A stretch of DNA of 64,000 bases from Diplonema papillatum. Lineage: Eukaryota > Euglenozoa > Diplonemea > Diplonemida > Diplonemidae. The notes under the pieces are model-generated. The model did not search any database, was not told the DNA's origin, and saw nothing but the letters and a program-made list of their open reading frames with translations. Position numbers and translations under genes: made by a program. This document shows positions 1 to 62,396 of this stretch, piece by piece. The stretch's first letter is position 1. Every line of letters begins with the position of its first letter. The stretch lies in NCBI GenBank assembly GCA_030068145.1, contig JAPJBO010000947.1, forward strand, positions 22,541 to 86,540. Reading direction: 5' to 3'.

Positions 1-690
1 GGACAGCTGGCCTACACCAAGGCCCTCTCGGCCTCGTTTGGGGCGATGGGGTTCGAGAATCACCCCCTGAGAGTTTTGGCCAAGGCCCTGCGCGGTGGCG
101 GTGCGGCTATCCCGGACAGCCAAGCGACGCCGCTCGAGAAGCAGAAGCTCGTGTCTCACGCCAGGCTGCAGCAGCCGTCCGTTCATCTTGCCCTCCTCGT
201 CGCGTGGAAGACGGCATCCCGTTGGGCGGAGGTGGCGGATCTTTCGTCCGCCCAGTTCCTCTTGGTGACGCAGAAGGAGGTGATCGTGGACTGGTTCCAG
301 ACGCCGAAGGGGCGGACGCACGATCCTTTCAAGGCGTCGCGGTTCGCGGTGATCCAGGGGCCGTTGACGACGGAGATCGCCATGTTGTTCAGGAAGTGCG
401 CACCCTTCGCACCCCTGACAAGGCTGACGACGTCGGCGTTGGACTCTCTGTGGGGTCAGTCGGTGCAGATGCAGGGGTACACCGCGCACTCGATCAAACG
501 CGGCGCAGTGAAGCACCTCTTGCCGTTGCTGACCAGCGGCAAGCTGTCGCCGCACCTCGTCGATCGGCTGACGAAGCACGAGGAGGAGGGAGGTCCCGGG
601 ACGCTTTCGAGGACCACACTCCGGTACGCCGGGGGCGACGTGGACCTTGCCAGGGCACTCGAGACCGGCAAGGTGACGAGGCACTTGTGA
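1..690 (+). CDS. Tyrosine recombinase of retroelement 1, 5' partial
   Basis: This is the C-terminal catalytic part of a lambda-integrase-type tyrosine recombinase, the enzyme that would insert the circular cDNA of the element. The frame is open from base 1 and runs to TGA at 688-690, so the ATG at 46 is internal. The complete homologue at 43940-45034 aligns throughout. Catalytic boxes are visible: the first Arg in TASRWAEV, the H-x-x-R box in HSIKRGAVKHLL, and the nucleophilic Tyr in LRYAGGD near the end. The next frame (RT) overlaps it in the -1 phase. Confidence 0.85.
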   Translation, partial: GQLAYTKALSASFGAMGFENHPLRVLAKALRGGGAAIPDSQATPLEKQKLVSHARLQQPSVHLALLVAWKTASRWAEVADLSSAQFLLVTQKEVIVDWFQTPKGRTHDPFKASRFAVIQGPLTTEIAMLFRKCAPFAPLTRLTTSALDSLWGQSVQMQGYTAHSIKRGAVKHLLPLLTSGKLSPHLVDRLTKHEEEGGPGTLSRTTLRYAGGDVDLARALETGKVTRHL

Positions 691-692
691 CG

Positions 693-2345
693 GGATACCT
701 CCGCAGTGGTCATTTCCACTCCGTCACCCGACGAGGCGGTTCGACGCGTCTGCCGCGTAGCAAGGAGGAGCGTGCCTCGCCGTTGCACGTCGCGCCGATC
801 AAGCCGATGTCGGTCGACAAGCTGCGCGCGCGGATGAACGAAGCGGCTCTCCGCCGCTTTGACGATACGTGGCAAACAACGTTCTTCCCTCGTGTTGAAA
901 CCGAGACGGTAATCGGTTCACCCTCAACCCTTCGTCCTGAACATGCGTCTTTGCTTGCCGACAACGGGATTGCCCGCAGTTCGACCGGTCCCGGCCCGTT
1001 CGCTTCGGTTCCTTTTACCGTCTTGGAAGAGAAGGACGGGGCGCTGCGACAGCGCTTCATATTGTGGACAGTGGACGGCAACCGGGCCGCTCACGAGCGG
1101 GGGTACGAGGCGCATGTGCCTCTCGGACACGTTTCGGCGTATCTGGGGGCAAGCCGTGAAGAGTGTGGTTCGACCCGCGATTTCAAGACCGGCTTTTACG
1201 CGATCGAGATTCCACCGGAGTCGCGTCACCTCTTCCGCTTCGCTGATTCCGGTGGCGGTTGGTGGGAACTTCTGCGGCTTCCCATGGGACATTCGTGTGC
1301 ACCTGAGATAATGCACACGCTGGCAGCCGTGGCGGGCGGGCACGCGGATTACGTGCTACCGCAGTTTGCCGAGCGGGATGTCACCGTCGATATATGGGTC
1401 GACAACATCCGATATGCCGGGAAAAGGTCGGCGGTGCAGCTCGCGACCCGAAGGCTGGACCAGACCGCCGCTGATTGCGATCTGACGTGGAAGCCCTCCG
1501 ACTCGCAGACGGCGGCCACGCGGTATGAGTTCATCGGGGTCGATTGGGACCATGTTGCTCACCGTGTTGCAGTCTCGCGGAAGCTACGCCGGAAGCTTAT
1601 GGAAGCGCGTTACACGCTGAAGTCGTCGCCAACAATGCGGGCCTCCGAGCTCGAAACTCTTGGTGGTCGTTTGCTGCATGCCTCTGCAGTCGCTGGAATC
1701 TTTCCAGGCTCTTTTTGGTTTGCGCTTAAATTCTTTCGGCGCGTTACGAATTCGTTGAACCGGGGTGCACGACTCCCCTCTGATACGGTGGAGGTGTCTC
1801 CCTGTGTGCGATTGTCCCTTCAAGAGTGGATTGACTCGGTGTTAAAGCCGAGGGCCATCCCCGTTCTGCAACAGTCCCCGCGCATCACGGCCTTCGTGGA
1901 CGCGAGCAAGAAAGGCTGGGGCGGTGTCCTTGTGGATTCGCGGACGATGGAAGTGACCGTCTTAGGAGGGTCGTGGAATGCTGCGGAGAGCTCGCTGCAT
2001 ATCAACGAGCTGGAGGCCATTGCATTTAACCTGGTTCTCCTTGCTCTTCCAGTCTCAATCAAAGGGGGAAGAGTGGATGTCGTAGTTGATAATACCACGG
2101 TGAAAGGGGTTGCCCGAAAGGGTGCCTGTTTGAAGAGTGCCGTGTTGAACAACGCGGTAGTCAGAGGATTGGAACGCGTGCGTTCCTTAAACTGTGCTCT
2201 TTCCGTGCGATGGGTCAGGAGTGAAGGCAACCCTGCGGACTTGCCATCACGCGTACCGCTGACCATGATTGGCGCTGATGCGCTCGATTCAATTGTACTT
2301 GCGGTGAGGCAGTTTCTCACTGGCGTTGTGGTGGATGGAAGGTGA
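693..2345 (+). CDS. Reverse transcriptase/RNase H of retroelement 1
   Basis: This frame copies the element RNA into DNA and degrades the template. It is open in the -1 phase from position 204, inside the recombinase gene. The first ATG after the overlap is at 807, but residues encoded just upstream (TRLPRSKEERASPLHV) are conserved with the second copy, so translation probably enters by -1 frameshifting or from an upstream start. RT landmarks are LPMGHSCAPE and the catalytic WVDNIRYAG, where the usual xxDD is VDN. RNase H landmarks are FVDASKKGWGG, HINELEAIAF, VVVDNTTVKG and GNPADLPSR, with all acidic residues kept. No methylase domain is seen. The stop codon overlaps the first base pairs of the terminal repeat. 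Confidence 0.88.
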   Translation, partial: GYLRSGHFHSVTRRGGSTRLPRSKEERASPLHVAPIKPMSVDKLRARMNEAALRRFDDTWQTTFFPRVETETVIGSPSTLRPEHASLLADNGIARSSTGPGPFASVPFTVLEEKDGALRQRFILWTVDGNRAAHERGYEAHVPLGHVSAYLGASREECGSTRDFKTGFYAIEIPPESRHLFRFADSGGGWWELLRLPMGHSCAPEIMHTLAAVAGGHADYVLPQFAERDVTVDIWVDNIRYAGKRSAVQLATRRLDQTAADCDLTWKPSDSQTAATRYEFIGVDWDHVAHRVAVSRKLRRKLMEARYTLKSSPTMRASELETLGGRLLHASAVAGIFPGSFWFALKFFRRVTNSLNRGARLPSDTVEVSPCVRLSLQEWIDSVLKPRAIPVLQQSPRITAFVDASKKGWGGVLVDSRTMEVTVLGGSWNAAESSLHINELEAIAFNLVLLALPVSIKGGRVDVVVDNTTVKGVARKGACLKSAVLNNAVVRGLERVRSLNCALSVRWVRSEGNPADLPSRVPLTMIGADALDSIVLAVRQFLTGVVVDGR

Positions 2346-2749
2346 CCTCGCCCAAGCTCGTTTCCCCGGGTTAAGGCAGTCACTCAACATTCCCTTGCGC
2401 TAGTGATATCAGTTACAAAGACGTGTTCTTACTTCTCCCTTTCTTCTAGGCAGTTCTCGTCAGACAATACGAAGAGCAGAAACTCTCACAGTTTCACTGA
2501 GGGAGTTGATGCACCACGAAAGTCGATTAGAGAACTCTACACAGCCTTCAGGGTGTGGTTGGTTCAAAGAAACAGTCAAGTTTTCCCACCCTCCCTAACC
2601 CCCCGGTGACCTCGCCCAAGCTCGTTTCCCCGGGTTAAGGCAGTCACTCAACATTCCCTTGCGCTAGTGATATCAGTTACAAAGACGTGTTCTTACTTCT
2701 CCCTTTCTTCTAGGCAGTTCTCGTCAGACAATACGAAGAGCAGAAACTC
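2341..2749 (+). repeat. Split direct repeat terminus (B1-A2-B2) of retroelement 1
   Basis: The 145-bp block at 2341-2485 recurs, apparently base for base, at 2605-2749, separated by a unique 119-bp block at 2486-2604. It begins GGTGACCTCGCCC and ends GCAGAAACTC. Placed directly after the RT/RNase H stop, this is the B1-A2-B2 half of the A1-[genes]-B1-A2-B2 split repeats known for PAT/Ngaro/VIPER-type YR elements. The matching A1 copy (of 2486-2604) should lie at the left end, outside the window. Confidence 0.75.
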
Positions 2750-3837: not shown

Positions 3838-3868
<31 letters not shown>

Positions 3869-23892: not shown

Positions 23893-23925
<33 letters not shown>

Positions 23926-34470: not shown

Positions 34471-35625
34471 TCCACGGATCATCCCGGTCGCATCCAGGTG
34501 CTGCTCTGCCGCGATTGAACCAGCTGGAAGCTTGTTTCCACAGGCCTCAGCCGCTAACAAACCGGTGAATGTTCGCTTGTCTCGACGGTGCTTGACCACC
34601 GTTGACCACTTCCCCTCCCGACGCGGTGCAAGAACAGTCACGAAAGAAAAAGCAGAGCAACGGCATGGCTGAGTTGCCTCGCGGCAAGGTTAACGAATCA
34701 TTCGCGACGCCGCCTGCCTGAAGGCGGCGAGCATCAGCGAATTTACAGCAGAGACAAGAACGGGTGGTGTTGTGTAGTAGAGACCCTTCGCACAGAACGC
34801 CAAGAACGTGGAAGCTACGTATCGACTGATGCGTGGGGGCCTTTGCAGAGAACGGTTTATGTGTGGGCCCATCTAGTTTCGGAATGACAGTATATCTAAA
34901 GCCAAAGGTCATGCGTGTTGCTTCTGGCGAAAGACGTGGCGTACACTCTCAAGCTATCAATTTCCTTGTGATCGCGTGATCCTTTGACTACAATGGTCGG
35001 CTCGTCGTTGATGACAAGGCCTCGTTCCCCTCTTCTTTGGGCGGTCTTTTCCGCATACCGGGCGTGGCAAGTTATTAAACTCGTTGTTTTCAGTGATTCG
35101 TTTGACCCTCAACTGGACCCCCGGGGGCGCAGGCAGAGCGACCATATGAACCGCCAGGAATACACCACCACAACGTTCGATCGGGCCCATAGGGGGTGAA
35201 TTGGCTCAAACGACGCAAAATAACTTTTTCGAGTCGTTCGCGCTGACGCACGACGAGCAAGCAGGTGTAGAAGCGCAAGAAGCCGAAGCCGCAGCAGCCG
35301 CCTGCGAACGAGGGGCGCACACCAAAGCACGTCCAGATCATAGCGGTCTGTGATAGCGGGCTCTACCTGGGGCTTCAGGCGCTGAAGGCTCGTGTGGATG
35401 AAAGCCACACGAGTCCAGCTCCTACACCTTCTTCTCCTTGTCAGGATTCTGCCAGTTTCCGTAAGCGATGGTAAGGATCGAGTTGACCTGTGTGTGCGTG
35501 TGTGAGGCTTAAAGTGGGTTACGTCAGAAGCGAAGTATATTCCACTTGTCACTTTCACCAGTAGACAGTAGATCTTGAGTTTCCGACACGGCTTTTGGGC
35601 CTTGTGACACCTCTCCGAACGGTGG
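34471..35625. other. No gene recognised
   Basis: No domain-bearing frame was found. The missing 3' exon of the LicD-like gene could lie here, but no convincing candidate was seen. Confidence 0.35.
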
Positions 35626-35760
35626 GATTGCAAGAACGTGCTTGGAATGGGTATGTGCTCAACACCGCCCCGTCTGGTCCCGTCTGCGCCGTGTTTCGGT
35701 CCTTTAAGCCACGGACACACAAGGCGGACCATCATCAGCGCGAAACCTGTTTTTCGAACG
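35626..35760. repeat. Dispersed repeat family B, copy inside the LicD-gene 3' region
   Basis: GGATTGCAAGAACGTGCTTG through AAGGCGGACCATCATCAGCG, near-identical to 3180-3290 apart from a short CCCCGTCTGG insertion. It lies about 80 bp downstream of the LicD exon donor, i.e. in the presumed next intron. Confidence 0.75.
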
Positions 35761-37052: not shown

Positions 37053-39060
37053 TGAGCTCACCTTTTTTTTAGTACGGTCGTTAACTTCTTTTTAATTTTC
37101 CCCCGTCAAACCCGTCAACAGCAAGTGGCGAGCAACCCGCACAGGGGGGGTGGGCTGCTCCTTCGTTGGCAGGTTCTCTGCTATTCTGGATGTTGCTGCG
37201 TCGTTTTCGGATTTCTGTTCTCAGTTTTTCAGAGCCGTGCGAGTGTCGAAAAACACTCTGGTCCCAGTGTGGGTTAAGACCGTCCTGCTCGCCACGCCAA
37301 GACTTAACCGAAGTGGTTTTCAAGCAGCATCTCAAACCCAGGCTATTTTCGGTTTGGCCTCGTCGGCAGCGGACCCCCCGGTCCACGGCTATTTCTGGGC
37401 CGAGTCCCCTGCCGGTCGCTTTTTCTTGGTTCAGGCTTGCCTTGGTGTGCGTACCCTAGGTGCGCGTACTAATTGGTAGCGGGCTTCCTTGCCTGTTTGA
37501 GCTTTGTGGGTGCTCCGTGTTTGGTGGGAATTCTTTAATGCATACGGCACCCTTGTGGCAAATCGTTGATTCCTTTTAGCTGCGATCTAGCAGGGACCAG
37601 CGCCGGGAGCAGCGTGTTAGGCTGCCTTCAAAGCCTGCAATTTTCATTTTGGATGCTTTTTGTAAATGAGAAGGGGATGAGACAATAACTCGACAGAGAG
37701 ACCTTCCGTGCCGCGATGCCAGTTGTATGCGGCACCATCAGCACGATTAACCAAGAGGAAGGAGGTCTTGTCTTAGTGAATGTTTGCAATTTGTAGGCCG
37801 TACTTTCAACTTCCTACGTTATGCTGCCTGCTTCCCGGCCCTTGGAAGTGCAATCTGGACGTTTTTACTCATGTGAATTTCCCCATACATCACCAGGTGC
37901 GCATGGATGGTGCGTGCCTTCGGCTACCCTGAGCAACGCACTGTGCACACTCCGCGTCTACGTTACAGCAGATGGAACGCGTTTGTCGTCAGTTCAACGC
38001 CAACCGAGAGCTCTGTAGGCAACCAACACCTTACTCGTCAGCGAATTCAAACACCGCCCGGTTTTCGTTGGTGGTGTGTATGCGGCGCCCCTCGAGTGAC
38101 ACTGCAACAGGCTTCGTCCGAAGATGTCTCATCGGAGACTGGAAGAGAATTCTCGTCGAATTCTACCAGATCTACAACCCCATCAAGACAAGGGATATCG
38201 ATCCTCGATGAGTTCGAAGGAAGGTGTGCGCTTTCTTCCTTCTCGTAGCCTCGTGCCGTGCTTCTCACTGGTCCAGTACCAATACGCCAAGCCCAAAGCT
38301 CGGTTGAGCCCAGTCTCGGGAGCTAAAAAGCGGGTGCCACACCAGCTTCTTGTGACGTCTCCACGCGTTTTGGTCGGAACACGCCCGATTTTCGGGTGCG
38401 TCTCGTCGTTAACACCACTGGACTCCACTGTGTAGAAGACTTCGAAGACCGTTGCAGATCACACAAGGACGCTGTGTGGTGCTGGCTTCGTCCTTCAAAG
38501 ATTGACACAACTCGATGCTTGTGCCAAGTGATGATCCGCCAGAGTCGGCCAAGCTGTGTTCTACCTTGACGGCTTGGTGGCCTCCTACGGCAACCCGAGT
38601 AGATTCTTCAGACTCTTTTTGAGCCAGAAGTACGTGCGTGACGTGCTGAACTTGTACGGGAAAAGGTGAGGGTGCGGGTACGCTTCGAAGTCGAATTGCG
38701 TCTGTTTGTATGTTGTATGCCGTGCCGACTGAACACAATTGCACCTCACGTTTTCGCCAAGCCGCAAGAGGAAAGGAACAAGAAGTCCGTTCCCGCCGAA
38801 AGGTTTTCTCCGAAAGGTTTTCTCGTCCATGTGGAGCACGCCATGAGTGTAAGCAACAGAAGCTTATTGCATGCTTGTTTTTATTTTGCGTTCAACTCCG
38901 GAACCCGCGGGGAGGACGGTACCTGAAGCACGCAAAGCAGGGCGAGCTAGCTGTGAGCGCATCTCCAGCTCTTGCCTTGCCGGTGTCCAAAGGGGGGGTC
39001 TTTTGAACCCTCGGCTTTCAAGGTTCTTGCATCGTTCCCCTGTCCGAAATTATAGCAAAC
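37053..39060. other. No gene recognised; may hold further gamma-carboxylase exons
   Basis: The gamma-carboxylase-like gene leaves its third recognised exon at a phase-0 donor (39061|), so at least one more exon is expected here or the gene ends by another route. No matching segment could be identified by eye. Confidence 0.35.
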
Positions 39061-39307
39061 CTGTTTCAGGATCCACGGCTCCCGGACGCCGGGCGGCTGG
39101 GGCGGCAGCTGCCTCGACAAGTCGAACGACGAATTGACAAACGGCTGCTTTGGGGTGCCATTGAGAGCACACCACACGTCGGCGAACACGCGCACCACTT
39201 TCTTCGGATCCTGGATGTCCTCTTCGCGATCGGTCGTCTCGAGGCTGTTTTTGTGTTTGGCATCTCGCGGGTGGCACGGCGAATCAGCAACCTGCTCATC
39301 GGGATTG
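39061..39307 (-). CDS. Gamma-carboxylase-like gene, exon 3
   Basis: The 247-bp exon lies between acceptor GCAGAG| and donor AAACAG|GTTTGC. Joined to exon 2 it reads KFRNPDEQVADSPCHPRDAK, then VFADVWCALNGTPKQPFV, NSSFDLSR and PWILKQ. This matches the HTTM-family pattern after the membrane domain (human GGCX: FDIWVSINDR followed by a DPRVD-type motif and a W-x-x-P-L end). Asp-Pro is replaced by Asn-Ser here. The phase with exon 2 (2+1) supports the join. Confidence 0.65.
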
Positions 39308-39970
39308 CTCTGCTTTCATCGGCGGTTTTCAGAAATGAGTGCGATCTTATACACAGTTTTCAGAATGATGTGCTCAAACGGGCGTCCGTCTGCTCTTTCA
39401 AGACCGAACGACACGTGGAATCTGAGGGCAAGTCTGGCATTATTCACGCTACAAGAACATACGCAGATGTGACCAACTAGCGGGCAACATGCAGGCAAGC
39501 CGCTGCTTACGATACATACTGCCGACAGCGCCTTTTCGATGGCCACACGCGTAAAAGTAAGCAGTGCATACTACTGATCTAAGCTAGCGCCGTGGTGTTG
39601 TTTCAGCTTATAGGCGCTCCTGTGTAAAGACGTTTCAGTTCAGCAGTGCGAGACAGAGAGGCGGAATTCTACTTGTGGGAAGCGGGGTGTTCCTCCCGTC
39701 CGACGACAATCTCTCCAAGCACATGGTTCTTGGGTGGTGCTCATGAATTTGATGTGTCCAGTATTCCCGCACTGTGAGGTACCGGCATAGGAAGAGGTAC
39801 ATCATCCCGCAGTTCACTGTAAAGATCACGAGCACACTGAACGCCGGGAGTGACGCTTTTCAAGTAAGTCGGGGCTTTGTCTTCTGATCGACAGGCGTGC
39901 GTGCGATGACGCTTCGGCTGTGCACCTATTCGCCGGCAAGTGGAAAAGAACACAATGTAGAGATACACAC

Positions 39971-40074
39971 CGGAATTTGCTCAGCCGCGTGTCGGTTCCC
40001 GTTTCCAGCGCCTTTTCGTGGTTTTTGCGAACCTTCCAGCAAAGCTGCCGTACGTACGTGGCCAAGGTGCCAAT
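39971..40074 (-). CDS. Gamma-carboxylase-like gene, exon 2
   Basis: The 104-bp exon between acceptor CCGCAG| and donor TTCCG|GTGTGT encodes IGTLATYVRQLCWKVRKNHE followed by KALETGTDTRLSKF. Joined after exon 1 (QLKK, phase 0) it continues the family segment corresponding to MLKQYATCLSRLL in GGCX. Only position, phase and weak similarity support it. Confidence 0.6.
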
Positions 40075-40197
40075 CTGCGGGTAAGTGTTTTCGTACCCTC
40101 CCACTGCTCTCAAGGGAAACCACCCCCTGGGCAGGACACTACAACTAAAAATTGGTATTTCACGTTGAACGCTATCGCCCGGCACTGAACTCTTACA

Positions 40198-41308
40198 GGG
40201 GGGAAAATGTTTCTTGGGTTTGAAGAGCGCGTGGTGCTTGCACCACTGAGGCCAGGTTATTTAACCGCGGATTTAGTGAAGGATTGTTCAGGAAACGGTC
40301 GCGAGCGAAACCCGACCAGGTAACGACCATTTCACTGTCTTCTTTGTTTTGTGATGCGAACATCACGAGGTGCTGTCCGAAGACACCGCCCACGTGAGCA
40401 CTGTTAAGCAGCGGTTGCCAGATACTCCCGTAGCACCTATTCACGGGTTTGCAGGGGTAAAAAGGAAGCCCGGGTTGGGGAGGGTGGTGGGTTTGGTGCG
40501 TAGTATTCTTCTTTTTTTGTTCTTTCTCGGTTCTGGTGGTGCTGCTCCTTCCTTCTCGTCCTGTGTTGGGTTACGACTTTTTTTGTTCTTTATCGGTTCT
40601 GAGCGTTTCCATATGCCTTTTCCTGCTTTGACATGCAGTCCCTTCCAAACTGTACCTCTCTTGGTGTTCGGGGGTTGGGCCGTATGGTAACGTCTCGGGA
40701 AACGAAGTTTGTGGCGTCACAAAAGCGACAGGTTGCCAAAGCAACCGGGTGCCGAGCTTAAGCAAGGCGTTTGTCAATGGAGAACCAGTCCTGTGCCGTT
40801 TTAGGGCCGGCAGGTCTCAACGGGGGGAAAATGTTTCTTGGGTTTGAAGAGCGCGTGGTGCTTGCACCACTGAGGCCAGGTTATTTAACCGCGGATTTAG
40901 TGAAGGATTGTTCAGGAAACGGTCGCGAGCGAAACCCGACCAGGTAACGACCATTTCACTGTCTTCTTTGTTTTGTGATGCGAACATCACGAGGTGCTGT
41001 CCGAAGACACCGCCCACGTGAGCACTGTTAAGCAGCGGTTGCCAGATACTCCCGTAGCACCTATTCACGGGTTTGCAGGGGTAAAAAGGAAGCCCGGGTT
41101 GGGGAGGGTGGTGGGTTTGGTGCGTAGTATTCTTCTTTTTTTGTTCTTTCTCGGTTCTGGTGGTGCTGCTCCTTCCTTCTCGTCCTGTGTTGGGTTACGA
41201 CTTTTTTTGTTCTTTATCGGTTCTGAGCGTTTCCATATGCCTTTTCCTGCTTTGACATGCAGTCCCTTCCAAACTGTACCTCTCTTGGTGTTCGGGGGTT
41301 GGGCCGTA
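40198..41308. repeat. 487-bp exact direct repeat (40198-40684 and 40822-41308)
   Basis: Two copies, identical as far as can be read, start GGGGGGAAAATGTTTCTTGG and end GGGGTTGGGCCGTA, spaced 624 bp start to start with 137 bp between. This is either a recent tandem duplication of a 624-bp unit whose second copy is cut short, or a TRIM-like element with long terminal repeats: the spacer begins TGGTAACGTCTCGGG, which resembles a tRNA-complementary primer site, and GGGGGGAAAA resembles a polypurine tract before TG. The purine run precedes both copies, which argues for duplication. Confidence 0.85.
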
Positions 41309-41317
41309 GGGCCGGGG

Positions 41318-41333
41318 GGGGGGGGGGGGGGGC
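41318..41333. repeat. Poly-G tract
   Basis: About 16 G directly after the second 487-bp copy, followed by three AATACAAC motifs. Confidence 0.8.
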
Positions 41334-41908
41334 TAAATACAACTTTCTTGGAATACAACTACCGCCGCTGAATACAACTACTGTTGTTTCCCCCTAGTTT
41401 TTTCTCGTTGTTCCGTTTGTCTTGGAATAGTGCTGTTTCATTGGAGATCTGCACTGTTCTTGTTTCAGTGAAGCCTCTGAGATTGATTAGGGCTCGCTGC
41501 GAGTCGGCGGTTCCTCTTTGGACTGGATGCCGAGGGCCTGGGCCGGAGGAAGTTCGTCCAAACCTCTCCCACTTCCTCCGACGAAAAGCTGGCCTCCCGT
41601 CGTCGGCACGAACCCAGCCTGGGGCCCAGGTCACTGCCAGGTGAGATGGGGGAGTCTCCCAGGGGTCCTCGCCGGTTGCGGCGCACTCGCCCCTTCGTGG
41701 GGGGGAGGTCCCGCCGCTTCCGATTCGGGCTTGTCCGATTCCGAACTAGAGTCGGACTTGGAGTCCTGAAAGGGTTCCAGGGTGGGTTCACGCTCGAGTC
41801 GACCCTGTGGCTGTAACGCCGCTGCTTCTTCCAGATCCAGTGAAGGCCTGCACGACAGCGCCGCTCGCGGAGGAGAGGTCCGCCTGGCCGGCAGCTGTGT
41901 GGTGGGAG

Positions 41909-42025
41909 TCAATTGCCATTATAGTCCGTGTTTGCTTAGATTTTGCCATTATAGTCCAGGTCGCTTAGATTTGCCATTATAGTCCATGTTTCCTTAGATT
42001 TTGCCATTATAGTCCACGTTGTTAG
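41909..42025. repeat. Minisatellite near the 3' end of retroelement 2, about 31-bp unit
   Basis: Four units of TTGCCATTATAGTCC plus a 12-18 bp variable part (e.g. ATGTTTCCTTAGATT). The array lies about 240 bp beyond the RT/RNase H stop of the minus-strand element. Confidence 0.85.
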
Positions 42026-42263
42026 ATCTACAGTCCTGTCCGCTGCTACCAAGAATGCCTTGGCGCTTCACTTGCTGAGTTCATCATGAACTGCGCTACT
42101 GCGCTTCGCGTGCGCTTCACTTGATCGTTGCATTTCTCAGAATGCTTCTGAAATCCACTCATTGCAACAAAGAAAGGGGAAGAAGAAACAGGGTTTCACG
42201 TACGATGGGGTAACCCCCTGAGGTAGCCACTGATTTTGTGAGTGAACAGGCTAGCCCAGGAAG

Positions 42264-43937
42264 TCACACCACCAGACCCATATCGCCAGTAAGAAAACTC
42301 CTTACCGCAAGTGCCATGTCGGCCAAATTCGCATCGGTCAAAGCCGACACCGGGACCCGCGACGGCAGGTCGGCGGGATTCCCCGCACTCTTTACCCAGC
42401 GAACAGAGACTGAGATGTTCAGCCCGCGCAGATGCGCGAGCCCCTTCACGACTGCGTCATTTAAGACTTGCGACCGCAGACATGAACCCTTACGGGCAAC
42501 ACCTTGTACCGTCGTGTTGTCCACGACCACCGTCACTGCACCGCCCTCGTGCGCCGACGTCACCGACGCCACGCAACGCTCGAACGCCAGGGCCTCCAAC
42601 TCGTTGATATGGAGCCTCTTTTCCTTCCGCGACCATCTCGAACCCAACACTTCGATCGCGTTCGTAGCGACGTTTACGACGACGCCGCCCCATCCATCTA
42701 GACTCGCGTCAACGAAAACGGTCAACGCTGGCACTCTAGCCTCCACCGGCATGCTACGGCTCCCGAGAACGGCTCGAATCCACATTTCAAGCAACCGCTG
42801 CACACCGCCGGAAAGACGAATCGTCTGATCGACCGCCTTCTCCCCCCGATTGAGGGCGTTCGTCAAGCGCCGAAGGAACTTCAGAGCGAAGTAATACTCG
42901 CCCACAAAAACGCCGACGATCGCTGACGCATGCAGCAACCGCCCTCCGAGCGTCTCCAATCCCGAAGCAGACATCGCGCCCGTGCGCACTTCTTCCACGT
43001 CCCGTGCGAGCTTCTTGGCCAGCTTCGCCGATATGCCCACCTTGTTCTTCGAGTGGTCCCAGTCCACCCCGATGAACTCGTATCTCGAGCTCGCTGTCCG
43101 GGTGTCCGCTTGCTTCCACGTCACCTTCGCCTGTGCCGCCAAATCGTCGACAATCCGAGTCGCTTCGAGAACCTCCTTGCGCGATCCGGCGTACCGAATG
43201 TTGTCGACCCAAGTGTGCACTGTGAGCGTCGACGGCACTGCGTGTTCCTGCTTGACGAAATCGGGGTGCCCGGCAACGGTCGACGTCAACGTGTGCATTA
43301 ACTCGGGTGCACAGGTGTGGCCCATCGGCAACCGAGTGAGCTCCCACCATTCATCGGCGTCATCTCTGAACCGAAACGAGCCACGCGCGCTGTGCGGAAT
43401 CGCAACACCGTAGAACCCGCAGCGAAAGTCACGCGTGGATCCGCATTCCGCGTGCACCGCTGACAGGTATTTGCTGACGTGCTCCAGCGGTACCGACGCC
43501 TTGTATCCGTCGGCCTCAATCGCGTTGTTCGCTTCGAACGTCCACAGAATGAACCGCTGTCGCAATGCACCCTCCTTCTCTTCGATGACCGTGAATGGCA
43601 CGTTCACTGAACTTCCAGGCCCACGCGCCCTCCGAGCTATGCCGTGAGCTTCCAGCTCATGCGCATGACGTGCTTGCAACCGCGAATCCCGACGAGCCGT
43701 TGACGCAGCAGTATCCGTCGTCGCGCCAAATGTCCGCCGCCACGTCTCATCGAACCGAATCCTCGTCACATCATTCATCCGCTCTCGTAGGAGCGGTACG
43801 TCCATCGGTGGCACACTATCAACATGCAGCGGCGCGGCCTTCTCCTCGTCCGTCTTGGGCAAGCGCGTCTTTTTCCCCCGCTTGAACAGCGAGTGCTGCT
43901 GCCGGACAAACCGACCCAGGTCCAACGGGTCCCTGTT
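42264..43937 (-). CDS. Reverse transcriptase/RNase H of retroelement 2
   Basis: About 557 residues counted from the recombinase stop. The frame is open for a further 1.4 kb upstream in the -1 phase of the recombinase gene. Conserved with copy 1 from TRLPKTDEEKAAPLHV on, before the first ATG (PPMDVPLLRERM), so the true start or frameshift site lies upstream of that ATG. RT motifs: RLPMGHTCAPELMH and TWVDNIRYAG, with Asn in place of the second catalytic Asp in both copies. RNase H motifs: FVDASLDGWGG, HINELEALAF, VVVDNTTVQG and GNPADLPSR. No methyltransferase domain is visible. Confidence 0.88.
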   Translation of the reverse strand, partial: NRDPLDLGRFVRQQHSLFKRGKKTRLPKTDEEKAAPLHVDSVPPMDVPLLRERMNDVTRIRFDETWRRTFGATTDTAASTARRDSRLQARHAHELEAHGIARRARGPGSSVNVPFTVIEEKEGALRQRFILWTFEANNAIEADGYKASVPLEHVSKYLSAVHAECGSTRDFRCGFYGVAIPHSARGSFRFRDDADEWWELTRLPMGHTCAPELMHTLTSTVAGHPDFVKQEHAVPSTLTVHTWVDNIRYAGSRKEVLEATRIVDDLAAQAKVTWKQADTRTASSRYEFIGVDWDHSKNKVGISAKLAKKLARDVEEVRTGAMSASGLETLGGRLLHASAIVGVFVGEYYFALKFLRRLTNALNRGEKAVDQTIRLSGGVQRLLEMWIRAVLGSRSMPVEARVPALTVFVDASLDGWGGVVVNVATNAIEVLGSRWSRKEKRLHINELEALAFERCVASVTSAHEGGAVTVVVDNTTVQGVARKGSCLRSQVLNDAVVKGLAHLRGLNISVSVRWVKSAGNPADLPSRVPVSALTDANLADMALAVRSFLTGDMGLVV

Positions 43938-43939
43938 CC

Positions 43940-45034
43940 TCACAGAAACACAGTGACCTCCGCCGTTCTTAGCACGCGCGCCAGCGCCACCACGTTGTTT
44001 GCGTACCGCACCGTCATCTGCGCCACGGTCGGGTCCACCTCGTTCTTGTGCTTGGCCACCCTGGATATCAGGTGCTCTGGGAACGGAGCTCCTAGGGACT
44101 TGGCCTCCAGCAGGTGGTCGACTGCCCCCCTCTTGATGCTGTGTGCCGAGTATCGGCACATCCGAAGCTCGCCCGCCCACATTCTCGCGAGCTGCGCTGT
44201 CGACACCGACGTCAATTGGCGGAAGTCCCCCGCGCCTCGTACGAGCATCGCGATCACGTTCGTCAACGGCCCGCAGATAACCACCAACTTGCTCACACAA
44301 AACGGGTTCCTGGTACGACCCTTCGGCCGCACTCCCCAGTCGACTATGACTTCGTCGTCCGTCACCAGAACAAAGTCTCTCCGCGTCAGCATGCACACAT
44401 CGGCCCAACGCGACGCCGTCTTCCACGCGACGAGTGTCGCCAAACGAACGTGCGACACCTGGTCCATCGCCCATGAAAGGAGCGTGTCGCGCGGAATCGA
44501 CTCCGCCTGCGACAGCGGGATAGCTGCACCAGCACCACGGAGAGCAGACGCCAACGTTTTCAACGGCTGGCTGTTGACCCCCAAATGGCCAAAAACCGCC
44601 GCCAGCAACCGGGAGTACGCCAGCATACCCTGGGGTTCCACCGAAGTAGCCATCACGAACAGGACAGCCGTATCCGGGTTGAGGCCCATACCTTGCGCAC
44701 TGGTCCACGCCTGGAATCGTCTCCACAAATTGCGTCGATCGTCCACCGTCGATTCCGCCCAAGCACGACCCACCACCTGGTGCAATCGGTCGCGTGCTTC
44801 CGACACCGTCACGTCTCTCTCTCTGTGCCTCGAAGCAAGAGTCCGCGTGACCGCCACGCCCGTCTTCGATGCCACTAAATCGAGAACCGCTTGGCCGACG
44901 ATCGACGCCGCGCGCGACTGCTGTGTGAGAAGCCCTGCCTCCCCGGCTGAGAATCCGCGAAATGGCGAAGAGTTGGTTCTCGCGCTCCTTGGTGAAGGGG
45001 CGAGAGCCTGAATTGATTGTGCGCCGGGGATCAC
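43940..45034 (-). CDS. Tyrosine recombinase of retroelement 2
   Basis: A complete 364-residue recombinase that would integrate circular cDNA without an endonuclease. The N-terminal SAM-like DNA-binding part is at about 80-180 (WAESTVDDRRNLWRRFQAW). Catalytic residues: Arg209 in TASRWADV, His298 and Arg302 in HSIKRGA, and Tyr344 in MTVRYANN. The start codon at 45034 lies 235 bp after the gag stop; the spacing leaves the real start open. It overlaps the RT frame, which is open in the -1 phase throughout. Confidence 0.88.
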   Translation of the reverse strand: MIPGAQSIQALAPSPRSARTNSSPFRGFSAGEAGLLTQQSRAASIVGQAVLDLVASKTGVAVTRTLASRHRERDVTVSEARDRLHQVVGRAWAESTVDDRRNLWRRFQAWTSAQGMGLNPDTAVLFVMATSVEPQGMLAYSRLLAAVFGHLGVNSQPLKTLASALRGAGAAIPLSQAESIPRDTLLSWAMDQVSHVRLATLVAWKTASRWADVCMLTRRDFVLVTDDEVIVDWGVRPKGRTRNPFCVSKLVVICGPLTNVIAMLVRGAGDFRQLTSVSTAQLARMWAGELRMCRYSAHSIKRGAVDHLLEAKSLGAPFPEHLISRVAKHKNEVDPTVAQMTVRYANNVVALARVLRTAEVTVFL

Positions 45035-45268
45035 GCTCCTGACGGCTGCTAGGACTGACTCGGTCTCCTCCTCGAGAGAGACCCTTCGAAACCCGGGAAG
45101 AGGGAGGATGCCGGACGCGAGGATCGACCGACGGAGAACTGGCTGCGCGTCCGGAAACGCGCGATGGGAAGATGTCGCGGTTGGGGTTTGAAAATTGATC
45201 GGGGAGGGAATGGGATGGATAACTGGCCCCGCGGGTAACGTCCCGTCTGTCTGCCGGAAGGACGCCAG

Positions 45269-46369
45269 TCACTTTCCCCCGGGCATACCGTTTCCCCGTG
45301 CATAAGACCAGTTCTTGCCACCCTTTCCACCCTTGTACCTCCTCGGGGCGGCGTCCCACTTTGCCGTGCGGCTCCGCTCCTTCTCCATGTCACCCTTGAC
45401 CTTCGCCATCGTCCGATCAAGAACGTCCTCGGCCGCGGTCTCCATCTCCCGCAGCATCCTGCCGCGGGGCACCTTCTCGACGCACCACCCGTGGTGCAGG
45501 CGGACTTCCAACAAAAGCTCGTTCCCGAGCCGCACCAACTCCTCGTTCGCCGTCCAACCCGCTGAACCGGCGGCTACGCCCAAGATCCACGTCCTGAGCC
45601 TCTCGAAGGCACCTTTCAGCGCTGCCCCTCCCGGCGCTGAGACGTTGCCCGCCACGTACTCTGACTGCAAGTCACGGACCAGGCCGTGCGGATCGGCCGC
45701 CGCAATCTCCGACCATTCGCGAACGTCTTTGAGGCTGTACCGAGCCGGGTACCCGACCTGCGGCCCCGGTCCGTCAACCCCCGCCGGAATCCCAAGCTGG
45801 GCCTGCAGCGTCGCGATCGCCACCTTCTGCTGTTCCACGACGCTACACACCTGCTGTAGCATGGCAGAGAGACTGGCTACCCGCGGGTCCTCAGCCTGCG
45901 GCTGCGGCTGCGACGTCGATTGCTGTTCCTGTGGGCGCGGCTGCTGCTGCTGCGGCGGTGGAACGCCCTTCGCCGCCATCGTTACGCCAGCGGGAGCTGC
46001 GGCCAACGACGGCGGTGGTACTGCGCCCGCTTTGCCCAACACTTTCTGGCACGCCAACTTCACCCTTTCTTCGTCCTCTTCGTTGGCCATCATAAGCACG
46101 GCCAGCCCACGTGGGAGGTCAAACCCTGCGACGTTCGCCGCCTCTGCACCAATTGCCTCCACCAAAACTGAGAGCACCTTCTCTTTGACCGCCTCGCTGC
46201 ACGAACCAAAGACCGCCCCGCAGAATCTTTCCATGTCCTTGACACGAAACTTCCTTTTCGCAGGCGGGGCATCCAGAAACGTCCGCGTCCAGGCGTCTTT
46301 CAATGCGGCGGGGAAACGATACTCCCACTTCTCTGCGTTCGGAAGCGGCGACTGCTGACTGTCCGGCAT
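45269..46369 (-). CDS. Gag-like protein of retroelement 2
   Basis: First frame of the element, taken as the capsid-like protein by position. ATG 46369 (MPDSQQSPLPNAEKWEYRFP) is chosen because upstream residues are encoded by a 15-bp tandem repeat; 366 aa. Features: a helical N-terminal part, a Pro/Gln-rich linker (PPPQQQQPRPQEQQ, about 155-185), a short coiled coil (VVEQQKVAIATLQAQL) and a basic Gly/Lys-rich C-terminus (RRYKGGKGGKNW) that could bind RNA. No CCHC zinc knuckle is seen. No sequence family was recognised. Confidence 0.65.
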   Translation of the reverse strand: MPDSQQSPLPNAEKWEYRFPAALKDAWTRTFLDAPPAKRKFRVKDMERFCGAVFGSCSEAVKEKVLSVLVEAIGAEAANVAGFDLPRGLAVLMMANEEDEERVKLACQKVLGKAGAVPPPSLAAAPAGVTMAAKGVPPPQQQQPRPQEQQSTSQPQPQAEDPRVASLSAMLQQVCSVVEQQKVAIATLQAQLGIPAGVDGPGPQVGYPARYSLKDVREWSEIAAADPHGLVRDLQSEYVAGNVSAPGGAALKGAFERLRTWILGVAAGSAGWTANEELVRLGNELLLEVRLHHGWCVEKVPRGRMLREMETAAEDVLDRTMAKVKGDMEKERSRTAKWDAAPRRYKGGKGGKNWSYARGNGMPGGK

Positions 46370-46469
46370 AATCGTATAATGAATTTTAGACTTTGTGTTG
46401 CTAAAACCCCAGTGACCTGCTGTTTGGTCGTTACGCTGAAACATTCCCACGATGAATCGTAAGATTTTG

Positions 46470-46715
46470 GGCAAGTTTGAGACCCAAGTTAGGGACCCAA
46501 GTTGGGGACCCAAGTTGGGGACCCAAGTTGCAGGAGAGAAAAAAGGAATGCGTGGATGATGAATGCTGCTGGAATATCAAAAGGCGAGCATGAAAAGTAA
46601 GAATGAGCTTTCACGCCAGTACGGACCCAAAGTTGGTCCAAAATCCGACCCAAACTTGGACCCACAAATTTGAACCCAAAACTTGAACCCAAAACTTGGA
46701 CCCAAAACTTGGACC
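46470..46715. repeat. Degenerate GGACCCAA-TTG tandem repeats upstream of retroelement 2
   Basis: 46480-46530 has four 15-bp units of GGGACCCAAGTTGG. 46620-46715 has about seven units of the related ACTTGGACCCAAA. Isolated similar motifs occur near 14835-14880 and 4140-4170. They lie just 5' of the gag start. Confidence 0.75.
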
Positions 46716-47506
46716 CATGTGGTGGGCCTCGTCGGCCTCGCCGCTTGTGGCGGCGGGGTCAGCCTGGGCGCCGTCTGCGTGTCCGGCCTGCTCGACTCAT
46801 CCCTTGCGGGCCAAGTTGCGGCGACAAAGCCGGTCTGGACGGCGACCGGGGGTCCGAGTCCGACGGCTGACTTTTTTCTGACTCGGAAAGAAGTACGAAT
46901 ACAACCGGTCTGAGTCGGACGACTGCGAAGTATGAAATGCTGCTCGAAATCTGCTCCCTTTGTACAGGGGCATGGAAACCCACGGTTGATTACATAACGC
47001 AAAACAGTTGTATTCGAAGACCACGTTCTGCCACGAACCTGCATTTTGAGCTTGACGCTTTGAATACAACGGGCGCTCGTTGTATTTAGCCCCCCTGTAA
47101 CTATGTGTTGCGAGTGGGTCGCAGCATGCTTCTTCCTTTGCGATTTGGGTTCTTGTTGCGTGGGACTCATCGGCATGCTGACGAGCACCACACATGCCAG
47201 CCTCTCGCTACGTGACTCCGGGGCACTCTTGGCGCGCTTTTGTCGCAGTGCAACTCGCGTCGCTGCAATCGTTGCTCTCTCTAGTGACACATCGTAACAA
47301 TAATTGGTGTCTGATCCTCGCTTCCTCGATTTCACCGAGCGGCACGCCGGGAAGCGGCTTTCGTCAGGAAGCTGAGTTGGCGGGAGGGCGCGAGAAGCGG
47401 AACCAGAATCCGAATCGGTCAGAGCCAACGCCGGTATGACTTGTGATTCAGAACGGGCGGGCCTACAAAGCATGTCTTTGGGCAAGAAAGGGAACGCTTG
47501 ACACAC

Positions 47507-49825
47507 CTTCTTCAACTGATGCTGGTGCAGGTACACAGGCACTTCCCACTGCGAGCCGTTCATGTTGTACGTATGACTGTAGCCCAGGGAATCGTGGACT
47601 ATTGTAAGCGTGCCATCACAGCTCTTGTGCCGCGACATCATGTGCCAACTGAACTTGCGACCGTGTTCGGTCCAGTGTACTTGTTGATCAGACTCCATGT
47701 GGTAATACCAGGAACGGAGTGGGTATCCGAACTCGAAGACGATGACGAGCAGAAGGAAGAAGACGAGGATGTAGCGGTAAGCACGCGAGTACTGAGGCAT
47801 GATACGCGGCTTCGGTGGGTGAAGGATTCCGTTCGGCTGGCTGTACCATGACTCGTGTTGGTGCAAGTTGTAAACGTCGTCGACGTATGGATGGAACGTG
47901 TCAAGGAGCAAGCTTCCGACACTGCGAGCCGTTTTTCGGACAGTATGCTCTAGCACTGGCATTCGGTTCCACGTCAGTTTGTCAGTTAAACCTGACAAGT
48001 ACGTGCCAAGTTCGCGGATCCTACGACGGCACGTATGGGTCTCAACGAGCAATGGAATGGAACCGAGCATCATCCAAGGGAAGACGCCAATGTTAAACAT
48101 CATCATGTTGGCCGTGTTGAACAAGACAAAACCGAGCAGCGCGATGATGCGCAACGGTGTGTGGCAGACCCAGAGAGGGCCTGTCAAATCGTACAACACC
48201 CCTCCGTAGGACATGAATAACACGCAGAACTCGCCGACAAACCATGTCGGGGCGTCGTGCATACCAGCGCGCATGACATGCCCGCTCATCCAGTCGTTGT
48301 TCATCTTCGCGACAAAGCCGTAGAAAAAGACGAACAGCACAAACCCGCGCATGAGGAAGTAGTGCAAGTACGGGATCGGAGTCACCTTCGGTGCATCTGG
48401 TGGCGCCGACGACGCACTCGCAGCGCTTACTTGATGTTCCTCTTTGCCCGTGGATGCGACAGGCTCGTTTTCAGCAGGAGGCTGGGCCGCCTTCGTCGAC
48501 CGGCGAAAAAGTGCCGACAGTAAACGAATCGGGTCAAAAACAAGCGCCTTGTTTGCGTCCACTACGAGGAAGATAAATCCGACGCAGAACATGAGGTAGT
48601 AGTGATTGTTGTAGTGCGTGGCCTCCACGAAGAAGTGCCACACGTAAGTAACAGTGAACACCAAGCTGCTCAGGCGGTATGGCCAGCCGAGCATGAGGAA
48701 GAACCCAGCGGCGGCCATGGCGTAGTACATGTAGTAACAGTAAGGGGCAGGAAGGTCCGGTCCGAGGAATTCCATGTAATCGTACTTGAAGCGCATGTCC
48801 GCTTGCACATGGTCGCGGGTGACTCTCCCATTGTTAAGATTCTTGATTGTTGATTGACAGACGAGGAAGCCGAAGGCGCAGCGGAACATGGCAAGAGGCA
48901 AAGGGTCTGTGGCAACGAACAGCCAATCTTGCATGCCCATCGTAGCACCACCGACGCCGAAGGGAAGCCAGCTGAAGGGAGCGAGCCAAGAACAAATGGG
49001 CCACGGCTCGTACTCAACCCATGAGCTCAATGAGCTGGGACGGTGGTTGAACGTGCACTGAGTCGCAAACTGTATGAGCGGGAGAGGGTCCTTTTTGGTG
49101 CCCATGCTCCACTCCTCCGGGACTCTCTGCTGGAGCTGCTGGTGCATCTCGCGGCAGCCAAACGATTCAACGCAGATGCTCTTCTCGTGAAACTCGGCAG
49201 CAAGGGACCGGATGATGAGAGGCACCGAGTCCGCGCCGGCCTTGTCCTCGAAGACGCGCAGGCTTTTCTTGGGCAGCAGCTGCTGCAGGATGGCGGCGTT
49301 CTCCCTGTGGTCGCGGCCCACGACCGGACCGGACAAGACGACAGTCAGCACCGGCAGCCGCCATTTCGGCTCACTCCGCGGGGGCAGCATCTGCAGGTGG
49401 AGGACGACGCAGGCGAGCTCCTCCGGGCTGTGCGCGACCCACACAATCTTCGGGACGCGGTACTCCTTCGGCACGTCCCAGCGCAGCAAAGAAACCAGGG
49501 CCAGCAGCGACCAGTCGTGGACGCCCACGTTGTAGACGAGGTAAGGAGTCACATCGCTGGACTGCAGCAACTGGTACCCCTTCTCCCGTTCCACGAGCGC
49601 GTGCACCTCGACGTCGACCGGGACGATATCACCCACCACGATGGGCCCAGCCAGCACCGGTTGTTCGCCCCCAGTTGAGATCAGGTTAGCCCGGATCCAC
49701 TTCCCTTGCACTTTAAACCATCGGTGCAGCCCAGGACACTGCGGTGCCGGGCCCTTGCACTGGATGCGCAACAAGCCCCTTTCGACCGACTTCTTCTCGA
49801 CCACCCATTCGACGCTCTCAGACAT
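47507..49825 (-). CDS. Vitamin K-dependent gamma-carboxylase (HTTM) homologue, exon 1
   Basis: GGCX-type enzymes carboxylate glutamates in the ER using reduced vitamin K; many protist and bacterial HTTM relatives have unknown substrates. The ATG at 49825 opens a 773-residue exon ending at donor AAG|GTGTGT. Residues 1-250 form an unrecognised soluble domain. 300-700 form the HTTM domain with membrane spans around 305-325, 365-425, 485-505, 560-595 and 685-702, and the family-typical THYNNHYYLMF at 403-413. Residues 715-735 (WTEHGRKFSWHMMSRHK) match the post-membrane FSW-MM-R motif of GGCX. The frame continues 309 codons past the donor, through odd repeat-coded residues; that part is taken as intron. 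Exons 2 and 3 lie at 40074-39971 and 39307-39061, beyond a 7.4-kb intron filled with repeats. Confidence 0.8.
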
Positions 49826-50235
49826 ACTGCGCCGCTTTCAACCTCCCGTGTGTGTTCTACCACGCAGCCTCCGGGAGGCACCCCGCAGGCGGTTCGCGAT
49901 TGTTGGCTCCTTTTCTTTTTCTGAGCAAATCTGAGTGGGGGTTTTTAACCCGCCCGTGCCTTGCACGTTTGGTGTGACTGCCCGCCACTAACGCAATAGC
50001 GCGCATGAAACCGGGGAAGACTTAATGGGTGTCCTTCCGGCGCGCATTCTTGCATACGGTAGGCACCCTCACGTGGAGCACACAACGAGCCAGGTGGCAA
50101 TACTCGGTACCCGGAGGCCGAAGGGGGGGGATGAAACAGTACAACTACGCACGGGTCTTAGATTATTGGGGTTGATTCGTCTACCTCTGCAATCGCTCAG
50201 GATCACCTTCGGAAAGAAGACTGGTACTCACGTAC

Positions 50236-57276: not shown

Positions 57277-59699
57277 GCAGGCGGCGCTGTTGTGAGTTGT
57301 GTTCAGCTCAAACTGGCTAGTGCAAGTCGTGTGGTGGTTGTGAACTCGCAGGATGTGCCGCGGACCGGCGCCGGAATATTTCCGGAGTTGGGACTTGCAA
57401 TGAAACGAAGTAACGGACAATCAGCATCAACTGGTCAGCAGGTAGTGTAGGACAGGGCATCCTGCGAAAGTAAGCGTGTGAAACCTTCGGCATGCCGCCT
57501 CTACCTCAGCCACTCTTTCGTAGCCAATGTGTCCACCGACAGACGTGCTGCGACACCGGGAAGAGAACGTAGAACATACCCGAGCTTCGCGGTGAGAATC
57601 TTCCGCATTCCGGCCTCGGACAGGGGGGCACAGGGGGACTGCCCTTGAACTTCGATCCAGGCTGTGAGAAGGTTTCCGTATTATCTCAATGCTCGAGCTT
57701 GTCTCGGACACCCATTTGAGAACAGGAGAAGAAGGGCGGAACGGTTGACTCTTACACGGGGACCGGTCGACTATTCTGGGGGTCGGGGATTGCGGGATGG
57801 GGATGTCTGAAACCCCGAGGGGTGATCTCACTCTCTTGCATACCAATACAATGCAGGGAATAGTTGAGCTGCAGCTCTTGACAAAGACAGATGGGTGTCA
57901 ATCACCGAGAAAAGGAGAGCCGTGAGGGTTAAGTAGTGTATAGAAGCCTCCATAGATGCCCCCGGGTGGGTATATTGGGTAGTATACCAGGTACCCATCC
58001 CTTAAATCCCTCATGGGGGCATTTCTTGGGCCGGCGTGCTATTCTGGAGGTATTTGCAGAACCTCAACTGAAATGTGGACCGCATCCAGCAGCTACAGGC
58101 GTGACAGAGTTGCCTACGTCGTGAGCTGTCAGGGACAGTGACCTGGAGAACTTTGATATGGTTGCATGGCATGGCATGGTTCTGAATCAGTGCCAGTCAT
58201 CCTGAATGATAATCGCGTACGCTTTCCAATCGTTGTTCAGAGTGTCGAAGAACACCACATCACTTTCCATCAAAGCTCGGTATGGCCCCACCCTGCTGTT
58301 TCATCCAACCAGGCTTGGGGGTACTCCTGCAAAACCTCGCTTGGAGTGTCCGCTATACTGTCGTGGTCTGCCAATTATTCAGAAGCCTAGTAGAAACACC
58401 TCGCATATGTTGCTTCTCAGCGTGCTGCTTCAGCTCATCCAATCAGCCTTTTGTCTGTTTCTGCAGTGGTCGCCACTAACTTTGACTTCGCAGCTTTCGG
58501 GGTCCCTTTAGAGCTGCTGGCCCGCAGGTCAACAGAATCCACGTGACACGCAATGCGTTTCGTCGAGATCGGCTGAGGCTGACAATAGAGTCAGTTGTGG
58601 CCGCACCTCGCTCGTTCACAGAAAGTCTTCTGTGTCACTGACGTGGCCGACGATCTGACCCAAAAACGTCCGAATCCATTCTCCACAAAGTCAATAGTCA
58701 TCAATACTGGGTTTGGGTATGGTGACACAAATTGTCAACGCCGCGGGATATTGTGATGCTATACCCTCCAGAACTCGTATTCTGAGGAGGAGAGCTGCCT
58801 TCTTCTGAGCATAGAACCCGGTTTCGCCTCAGAGGTCGCCACATGCACAGCATCGTACTTGCCAGAATATTTCTGCCCAAACCCTCACCCCTGGCATCGT
58901 CTCATATTCCTCTCTTTGTATAATCGGAGGTCCTGAAGTCCCACCATTTTGCCTTGGGCCCGGGGAGAGGGGAGCAAATACTGCGCAGGATACAAGCCAC
59001 CCTGGGATGCTCCTCAAAAACCGGAGTAATTCTGAGAGTTCCTGCAGGAAAGGCAAAATAAAAAATGGACCCCACGATGAGTTCTGCCGGGTTTCTGCCG
59101 GGTTCTTGGCGACTTCTTACCGACTTTCTACCGGGGTCTGGATCACACCATTTGCTCTTCGCTTTTTCTCACGGACGGGGGGGGTCGGTTCTGCTTTTGG
59201 CTCTGTAGGTTCTCCCGACTCCCCAAATCGGTTAGCACAAACTCAAGAGGTCTAGTCAACTATTCCCTGCAGTATTAGCATAATTTCGATAAGAAAGTCG
59301 GCAAACTACGAATCCGTAACCTCGGAAAAGGATTGGCCTGGAGATATCCGTACAGGTGTAGGTTCAAGCGCTGCGAGTGGGTGCTACCCGCGGCTCGGAT
59401 CCTTCCTTGTTGCTTCTCCAGCCGTGAGACTGTCTTTTCCAAGCCCCCAACGTAGATACGGTACGGGCTGCTGCATATTTTCACACCGATCACTTTCACA
59501 AAACAGCCACGTTCCACCCCCGATCCTCGTGTGACTTCTGAATAGTTTGCGAAGAGCTCCGGTATTCGTGTCCGTGGCTTGGAATATTTTAGGGAAACTT
59601 GCAGATATATGCGCAGAAAACTGCAACTTTTTGTGACATGCATACGCAAAATGCAGTTTTTTTTGCAAATATATGCATACCCCCCCGTGTTTAAGATCG
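57277..59699. other. No gene recognised
   Basis: Only short frames without domains. Minor tandem CGGGTTTCTGC-type sequence near 59085-59140. Nothing else is supported. Confidence 0.4.
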
Positions 59700-59775
59700 C
59701 CCCCTCCCCCCCCCGTGTATAAGATCGGTTTTTTTGAGAAATGAGGGCGATCTTATACACGGGGGGGGAGGGGGG
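59700..59775. repeat. Perfect-stem inverted repeat
   Basis: The left arm ends CCCGTGTATAAGATCG at 59727. The right arm starts CGATCTTATACACGGG at 59748 and continues into the complementary G/A run. Stem about 26 bp, loop about 20 bp. The loop-plus-right-arm sequence GAGAAATGAGGGCGATCTTA recurs, slightly changed, at about 39332-39352. Confidence 0.75.
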
Positions 59776-59867
59776 TGGGGTCCCGCGCAGCGGGAAAGTT
59801 TTTTTTTTGGGGGTGTTTTTACTGTTGGGGGGGGATTTTGGCCCCGCGCAGCGGGATTTTTTTTTCG

Positions 59868-62230: not shown

Positions 62231-62396
62231 GCGGTGGATATGGTGTGGGTGTACGACCCACGCTCGAATACTGTTCCGCGGGTTCGTCCTGCCGCTGTTG
62301 TGCACGCAGCAACAGAATGGTGGACACAACAGGTTGCCGAGAAGAACAAGTGAATGGGATAAGCATGGCCCGAAGTCTGGGGTGTGATGGGTGGGG

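Follow-up and report, generated by a model that had tools for sequence, protein, structure and literature searches.

Among the retroelements that carry a tyrosine recombinase (YR), Ngaro and PAT place the YR after the reverse transcriptase (RT). In DIRS1, the YR catalytic domain lies at the 3' end of an overlap with pol, and the YR of PAT can be inverted (PMC3266345). The VIPER element of Trypanosoma cruzi is described as a gag of 446 amino acids (aa) followed by overlapping YR (335 aa) and RT/RNase H (RT/RH, 942 aa) frames within 4390 bp (PMC5146736). Split direct repeats of the form A1 ... B1-A2-B2 have been published for VIPER and TATE; PAT and Ngaro carry split repeats as well (PMC6681497). 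In the literature covered, the anatomy of VIPER and TATE is described from kinetoplastids only. Here, we describe two YR retroelements in a 64,000-nucleotide stretch of contig JAPJBO010000947.1 (the window), with copy 1 on the minus strand and copy 2 on the plus strand (Table 1). Compared with VIPER and TATE as described in print, both copies probably belong to this group of YR retrotransposons, in a euglenozoan, most likely diplonemid, genome.

A sequence-only reading of the window had placed the YR ahead of RT/RH in both elements, and its order and coordinates proved right: copy 1 presents the full gag-YR-RT/RH arrangement, and copy 2 presents YR-RT/RH. The two copies share 51% of residues in the YR and 54% in RT/RH, which argues against a single recent rearrangement, later duplicated, as the source of the common order. 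Differences between the copies are commonest at third codon positions (0.384/0.315/0.651 at positions 1/2/3 in RT/RH and 0.434/0.333/0.561 in the YR), a pattern that constrained coding would produce. The RT/RH frame is free of stops across the YR in both copies, as far as visible, and it stayed open in 0 of 2000 and 2 of 2000 synonymous simulations for the two copies, respectively. No methyltransferase (Dam) match to either element was found with Pfam.

Domain homology was assessed by profile comparison because the Pfam models RVT_1 and Phage_integrase gave no match in either element. As references, we used three DIRS-type loci from bacterial genome contigs (L166, L167 and L168), found by scanning with a DIRS motif. 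All three match RVT_1 (E 5e-17, 1e-18 and 3e-16) and read gag-RT/RH-YR, the gag being assigned by position and the YR by motif in L166 and L168. The YR of L167 is the only one backed by Pfam (E 6e-5), yet under the cut-off. Dam-like matches, also under the Pfam cut-off, were observed in L166 (E 0.0022) and L168 (E 4e-6), with none in L167. These loci sit in short contigs (3.8-4.5 kb) of bacterial assemblies and are probably eukaryotic contamination; viral contigs yielded no further DIRS references.

In hhalign, the window RT/RH aligned with the three DIRS-order RT/RH sequences over 352 columns, at E 3.8e-13 and a probability of 97.9%. The score was 105; 60 shuffles reached 24.9 at most, and two decoy pairings gave 17.0 and 16.1. 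RT motifs A, B and C fall opposite their counterparts in this alignment, as do the first three acidic motifs of RNase H. Excised alone, the RH of copy 1 passes the Pfam RT_RNaseH cut-off (26.6 vs 24.8 bits); it scores 22.5 to 23.8 bits inside the longer protein, and the RH of copy 2 alone scores 23.8 bits, both under that cut-off. For the isolated copy 1 RH, the hepadnavirus RNase H profile PF00336 ranks third at E 0.09, a faint echo; VIPER RH has been linked to hepadnavirus RH (PMC6681497). Relatives of the window RT/RH were not confirmed in viral contigs, plasmids, phages or bacterial genomes, by searches that reach mainly close relatives, and a PDB sequence search with RT/RH and with RH gave no match.

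For the YR, comparison by hhalign with a profile of 65 bacterial and phage tyrosine recombinases gave a score of 29.5 (P 0.0012), exceeding the maximum of 20.7 in 60 shuffles. In this alignment the R of box I, the K and the first H coincide; the second H and the Y lie past its end. YR relatives, searched for in viral contigs only, were not confirmed there. Five PDB matches to the YR (E 0.81-0.98), all flavivirus-type envelope or polyprotein chains, were judged to be chance.

The 3' end of copy 2 carries direct repeats arranged as B1-spacer-B2, as in the 3' half of the split direct repeats of VIPER and TATE; the 5' end of this copy lies off the window. By its position, the spacer would correspond to A2. 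As to inverted terminal repeats, a DIRS-like trait, no inverted pairs of at least 20 nt (exact seed 12) were detected in 38000-50000. A 41-bp minisatellite begins at 2751, abutting the right end of copy 2, and a 30-bp minisatellite at 41913-42016 lies behind the 3' region of copy 1. An insertion preference for minisatellites was considered and rejected, the right boundary being defined for copy 2 alone.

Table 1. Coordinates of the two YR retroelements in the window.
Feature	Position	Strand	Remarks
Copy 1, coding span	46369-42264	minus	gag-like ORF, YR, RT/RH; 4106 bp
Copy 1, open reading frame (ORF) 1, gag-like, 366 aa	45269..46369	minus	ATG 46369, stop TGA 45271-45269; named gag by position only
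Copy 1, possible -1 slippery heptamer G GGA AAC	45290..45296	minus	in gag frame, inside gag/RT frame overlap; lead only
Copy 1, ORF2, YR, 442 aa stop to stop	43940..45268	minus	
Copy 1, YR catalytic residues	R 44410-44408, K 44323-44321, H 44143-44141, K-R 44134-44129	minus	
Copy 1, YR second H and Y	H 44050-44048, Y 44005-44003	minus	placed by eye, past end of profile alignment
Copy 1, ORF3 frame, 1041 aa stop to stop	42264..45389	minus	-1 frame, open over all of YR
Copy 1, RT/RH domains	about 43670-42350	minus	RT motif C W-V-D-N; RH D-E-D-D present
Copy 1, 3' region, B1 candidate	42017..42263	minus	no repeat partner found
Copy 2, later part of element	1-2749	plus	5' end cut by window edge
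Copy 2, YR	1..690	plus	5' part beyond window edge; catalytic positions same as copy 1
Copy 2, RT/RH frame	3..2345	plus	open across visible YR; RT/RH domains about 945-2270
Copy 2, B1 repeat	2341..2485	plus	100% identical to 2605-2749 over 145 bp
Copy 2, A2 candidate, 119-bp spacer	2486..2604	plus	basis is position between B1 and B2 only
Copy 2, B2 repeat	2605..2749	plus	identical to B1; likely right end of element

The host was characterized from the remainder of the window. Among 96 ORFs of at least 150 aa, 8 belong or are antisense to the elements; of the 88 left, 43 lie on the minus strand, 8 of them with a Pfam match at E 0.001 or better, and 45 on the plus strand, none of them with such a match. 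Two of the eight are under Pfam's own cut-off. The 3' end of a small-subunit (SSU) rRNA of trypanosomatid type was identified at 4918-5500 on the minus strand. Its last-helix 14-mer GGTGAACCTGCAGC occurs in print in 13 papers, all 13 on trypanosomatids by title, a count biased by printed primers. The 17-mer formed with the window's next bases had no occurrence in the literature searched, and a 33-mer of the SSU had no match in viral contigs. A weak large-subunit (LSU) rRNA fragment at 27764-27886 (31 bits vs a cut-off of 50) is consistent with scattered rRNA pieces. In published descriptions, Diplonema papillatum has unidirectional gene arrays, scattered 28S pieces and introns in about 41% of its genes, mostly GT-AG (PMC10161547), with cis-introns alongside trans-splicing (PMC10161547, PMC12621601). 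The SSU and LSU fragments of the window fit this description. Overall the agreement is good, though by indirect signs, and the host looks euglenozoan, more likely diplonemid than kinetoplastid. The sequence-only reading had set the host apart from trypanosomatids on account of putatively cis-spliced genes; that argument accords with the evidence but misleads, as GT-AG cis-introns are present in D. papillatum, a member of the kinetoplastid sister group.

To place the elements, an RT tree was built from six sequences (the window pair, the three DIRS-type references and L169) with LG+G4 and 200 bootstraps, and an RH tree alongside it. L169 is a long terminal repeat (LTR) retroelement, probably from the moth host, in a record of 5.3 kb that was submitted as a plasmid of Wolbachia; its annotation names retropepsin, RT and RNase H genes, and an integrase-like piece was recognized by eye. 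In the RT tree, the DIRS-type elements form one clade (bootstrap 93), with the window pair and L169 outside it. The pair sits on a long branch, with 16-24% RT identity to the three DIRS-type references. The tree argues only against nesting among these three elements.

The VIPER-like nature proposed in the sequence-only reading is supported by the gene order, the ORF overlap, the B1-spacer-B2 of copy 2, the lack of a methyltransferase match and the position outside the three DIRS-type references, and other origins were weighed against it. Ordinary DIRS, PAT or Ngaro elements with a YR moved by rearrangement would account for the homology between the window RT/RH and DIRS-order RT/RH, and split repeats are known from PAT and Ngaro too (PMC6681497). 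We regard this origin as extremely unlikely, since the order and overlap are common to two copies that are only 51-54% identical. Moreover, L166, L167 and L168 read gag-RT/RH-YR (with a Pfam-backed YR in L167 only, under the cut-off), no methyltransferase matched, and the bootstrap of 93 stands against placement within the DIRS clade as represented by the three references. A separate YR-first clade, no closer to VIPER/TATE than to DIRS/Ngaro and having reached the same order independently, would suit the low RT identity, the long branch and the unusual RT motif C, VIPER and TATE being known here by description only. It is nonetheless unlikely, because the anatomical traits agree with VIPER/TATE where testable, the host apparently belongs to the kinetoplastid sister group, and TATE-like ORFs have been reported in D. 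papillatum (PMC10161547). The same report bears on the suggestion of the sequence-only reading that the elements form an undescribed clade, which found no support. Finally, the host could belong to the dinoflagellates or to some other lineage whose genes are unidirectional, the elements then being horizontal or convergent. Dinoflagellates likewise have unidirectional gene arrays (PMC11071213), but the trypanosomatid-titled literature on the SSU 14-mer, with its primer bias and with the 17-mer in none of the papers, and the fit of the SSU and LSU fragments to the D. papillatum description (PMC10161547) make such a host very improbable.

The likeliest reading of expression, drawn from one copy, is that the YR of copy 1 would be made by UGA read-through after gag, and RT/RH by a -1 shift. 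The YR ORF is in the frame of gag and begins straight behind its TGA; its first Met is residue 194, within the domain. Read-through is suggested because gag and YR share a frame and no ATG precedes the YR domain. A -1 shift is suggested because the gag and RT frames overlap by 120 nt, with an in-frame GGGAAAC. The chance of such a slippery heptamer was 0.14 by synonymous shuffle and 0.029 by codon shuffle, and its presence is thus not beyond chance. It is also quite conceivable, if somewhat short of probable, that gag and YR of copy 1 were once one ORF and that the TGA arose as a random nonsense mutation while the copy decayed. The shared frame fits such a mutation, as do the split repeats undetectable in this copy and, in Bodo saltans, two TATE copies with a single ORF (PMC6681497); the remainder of the copy 1 YR and RT/RH is open, however, and the copies show coding constraint. 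This alternative concerns expression only and is compatible with the VIPER-like reading. If the elements are transcribed and presently active, their RNA would be translated into Gag, YR and RT/RH protein, and RT/RH would copy it. The split direct repeats (A1 ... B1-A2-B2) could then allow the DNA ends to pair and the molecule to circularize, and the YR would recombine the circle into the genome without an integrase.

Several observations weigh against the VIPER/TATE-type assignment or the function of its parts. The kinship is judged from anatomy and published descriptions, with an RT tree that holds no VIPER or TATE sequences, and the rank of the host from indirect signs. The RH tree disagrees with the RT tree on the LTR outgroup, which falls among the DIRS-type elements at 75, and therefore does not help in placing the pair. 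Both copies have WVDN at RT motif C vs YIDD in all three DIRS-type references, leaving RT activity uncertain; TATE and VIPER RTs are said to be often mutated at conserved residues (PMC12440569). PF00336 is absent among the Pfam matches of copy 2. For the YR, the hhalign probability is just 19%, and hmmsearch was weak (E 0.17 and 0.68), though the two YRs ranked 1st and 5th among 605 window ORFs, with decoy ORFs between them. Pfam and NCBIfam integrase models gave no match to the YR, PHROG integrases matched copy 1 at no better than E 0.32, and hhalign against the three DIRS YRs did not reach significance (score 20.2 vs a shuffle maximum of 23.6). AlphaFold models of RT/RH and YR were too poor for use (pLDDT, the predicted local distance difference test, 37 and 36), and the residues encoded by the RT frame across the YR show only 24% identity between the two copies. 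Any A1 of copy 2 lies beyond the window edge, so its B1-spacer-B2 could be a plain local duplication, and copy 1 shows no split repeats (best 5'/3' match 31 vs a shuffle maximum of 33). On the host side, no spliced-leader motif was found in the window, and a test for trans-splice acceptors at nine start codons, those of eight host ORFs and of gag, gave no support for a polypyrimidine tract ahead of them (mean 12.6 vs 11.8/11.9 at random places).

Other features were observed in the window. Upstream of the copy 1 gag, a 13-bp minisatellite forms two arrays (46472-46530 and 46647-46717). The neighbour of copy 1 on the same strand (46577-49837) is a single-ORF gene resembling vitamin K-dependent gamma-carboxylase (HTTM E 1.3e-44). 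A 300-bp repeat pair (40191-40490 and 40815-41114) is 99% identical at a spacing of 624 bp; each member is followed by additional short repeats. A dispersed repeat family with 81-99% identical stretches was detected at 3172-3329, 3673-3830, 35621-35749, 24010-24078 and 62388-62434, and long poly-G runs lie near some copies (3838-3868, 23895-23924). At 59697-59778, two miRNA models matched below cut-offs on both strands, so this may be a near-palindromic hairpin.

For D. papillatum, more than 60 ORFs have been reported that resemble ones from TATE, MULE or Helitron; TATE was there grouped with DNA transposons, its anatomy not being described in the part of the text available (PMC10161547). Beyond one sentence in that paper, no described diplonemid VIPER/TATE element was present among the matches listed from the open-licence literature; in PMC8004069, VIPER and diplonemids appear in the reference list only. 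Because the host looks diplonemid, a sister group of trypanosome kin, the two elements most likely enlarge a known family and do not establish a new one. If confirmed, structured copies in a diplonemid host would trace the group to the common ancestor of diplonemids and kinetoplastids and provide a free-living organism in which to study it. It is possible, though doubtful, that the elements form a diplonemid-specific sister clade of VIPER and TATE, in which the YR-first order predates the diplonemid/kinetoplastid split, with two recoding steps (UGA read-through and a -1 shift) and a WVDN RT.

Set beside known systems, the window elements may share with Ngaro and PAT the split direct repeats (PMC6681497), to judge by the B1-spacer-B2 of copy 2. 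They differ from both, as compared by literature only, in the YR, which in each copy lies ahead of RT/RH and on its strand. This position also separates them from DIRS1, whose YR catalytic domain lies at the 3' end of the pol overlap. The DIRS-type loci L166, L167 and L168 have homologous RT/RH and a YR-like ORF, but they differ in their gag-RT/RH-YR order, an intact YIDD in all three and sub-threshold Dam matches in two. TATE, of Leishmania braziliensis, other trypanosomatids and Bodo saltans, agrees with the window elements in order, in a gag without a recognized domain (Pfam gave no match to the gag-like ORF of copy 1) and, as far as the B1-spacer-B2 of copy 2 shows, in repeat plan, whereas no telomeric insertion was seen here, the right end of copy 2 abutting the minisatellite. 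Compared by published description, VIPER of T. cruzi and other kinetoplastids differs from the window elements in the probably diplonemid host of the latter and in their WVDN motif. It resembles them in a gag-like ORF placed first and followed by overlapping YR and RT/RH, in size (a published consensus of 4390 bp vs the 4106-bp coding span of copy 1), in the B1-spacer-B2 seen at the 3' end of copy 2, and in having no methyltransferase.

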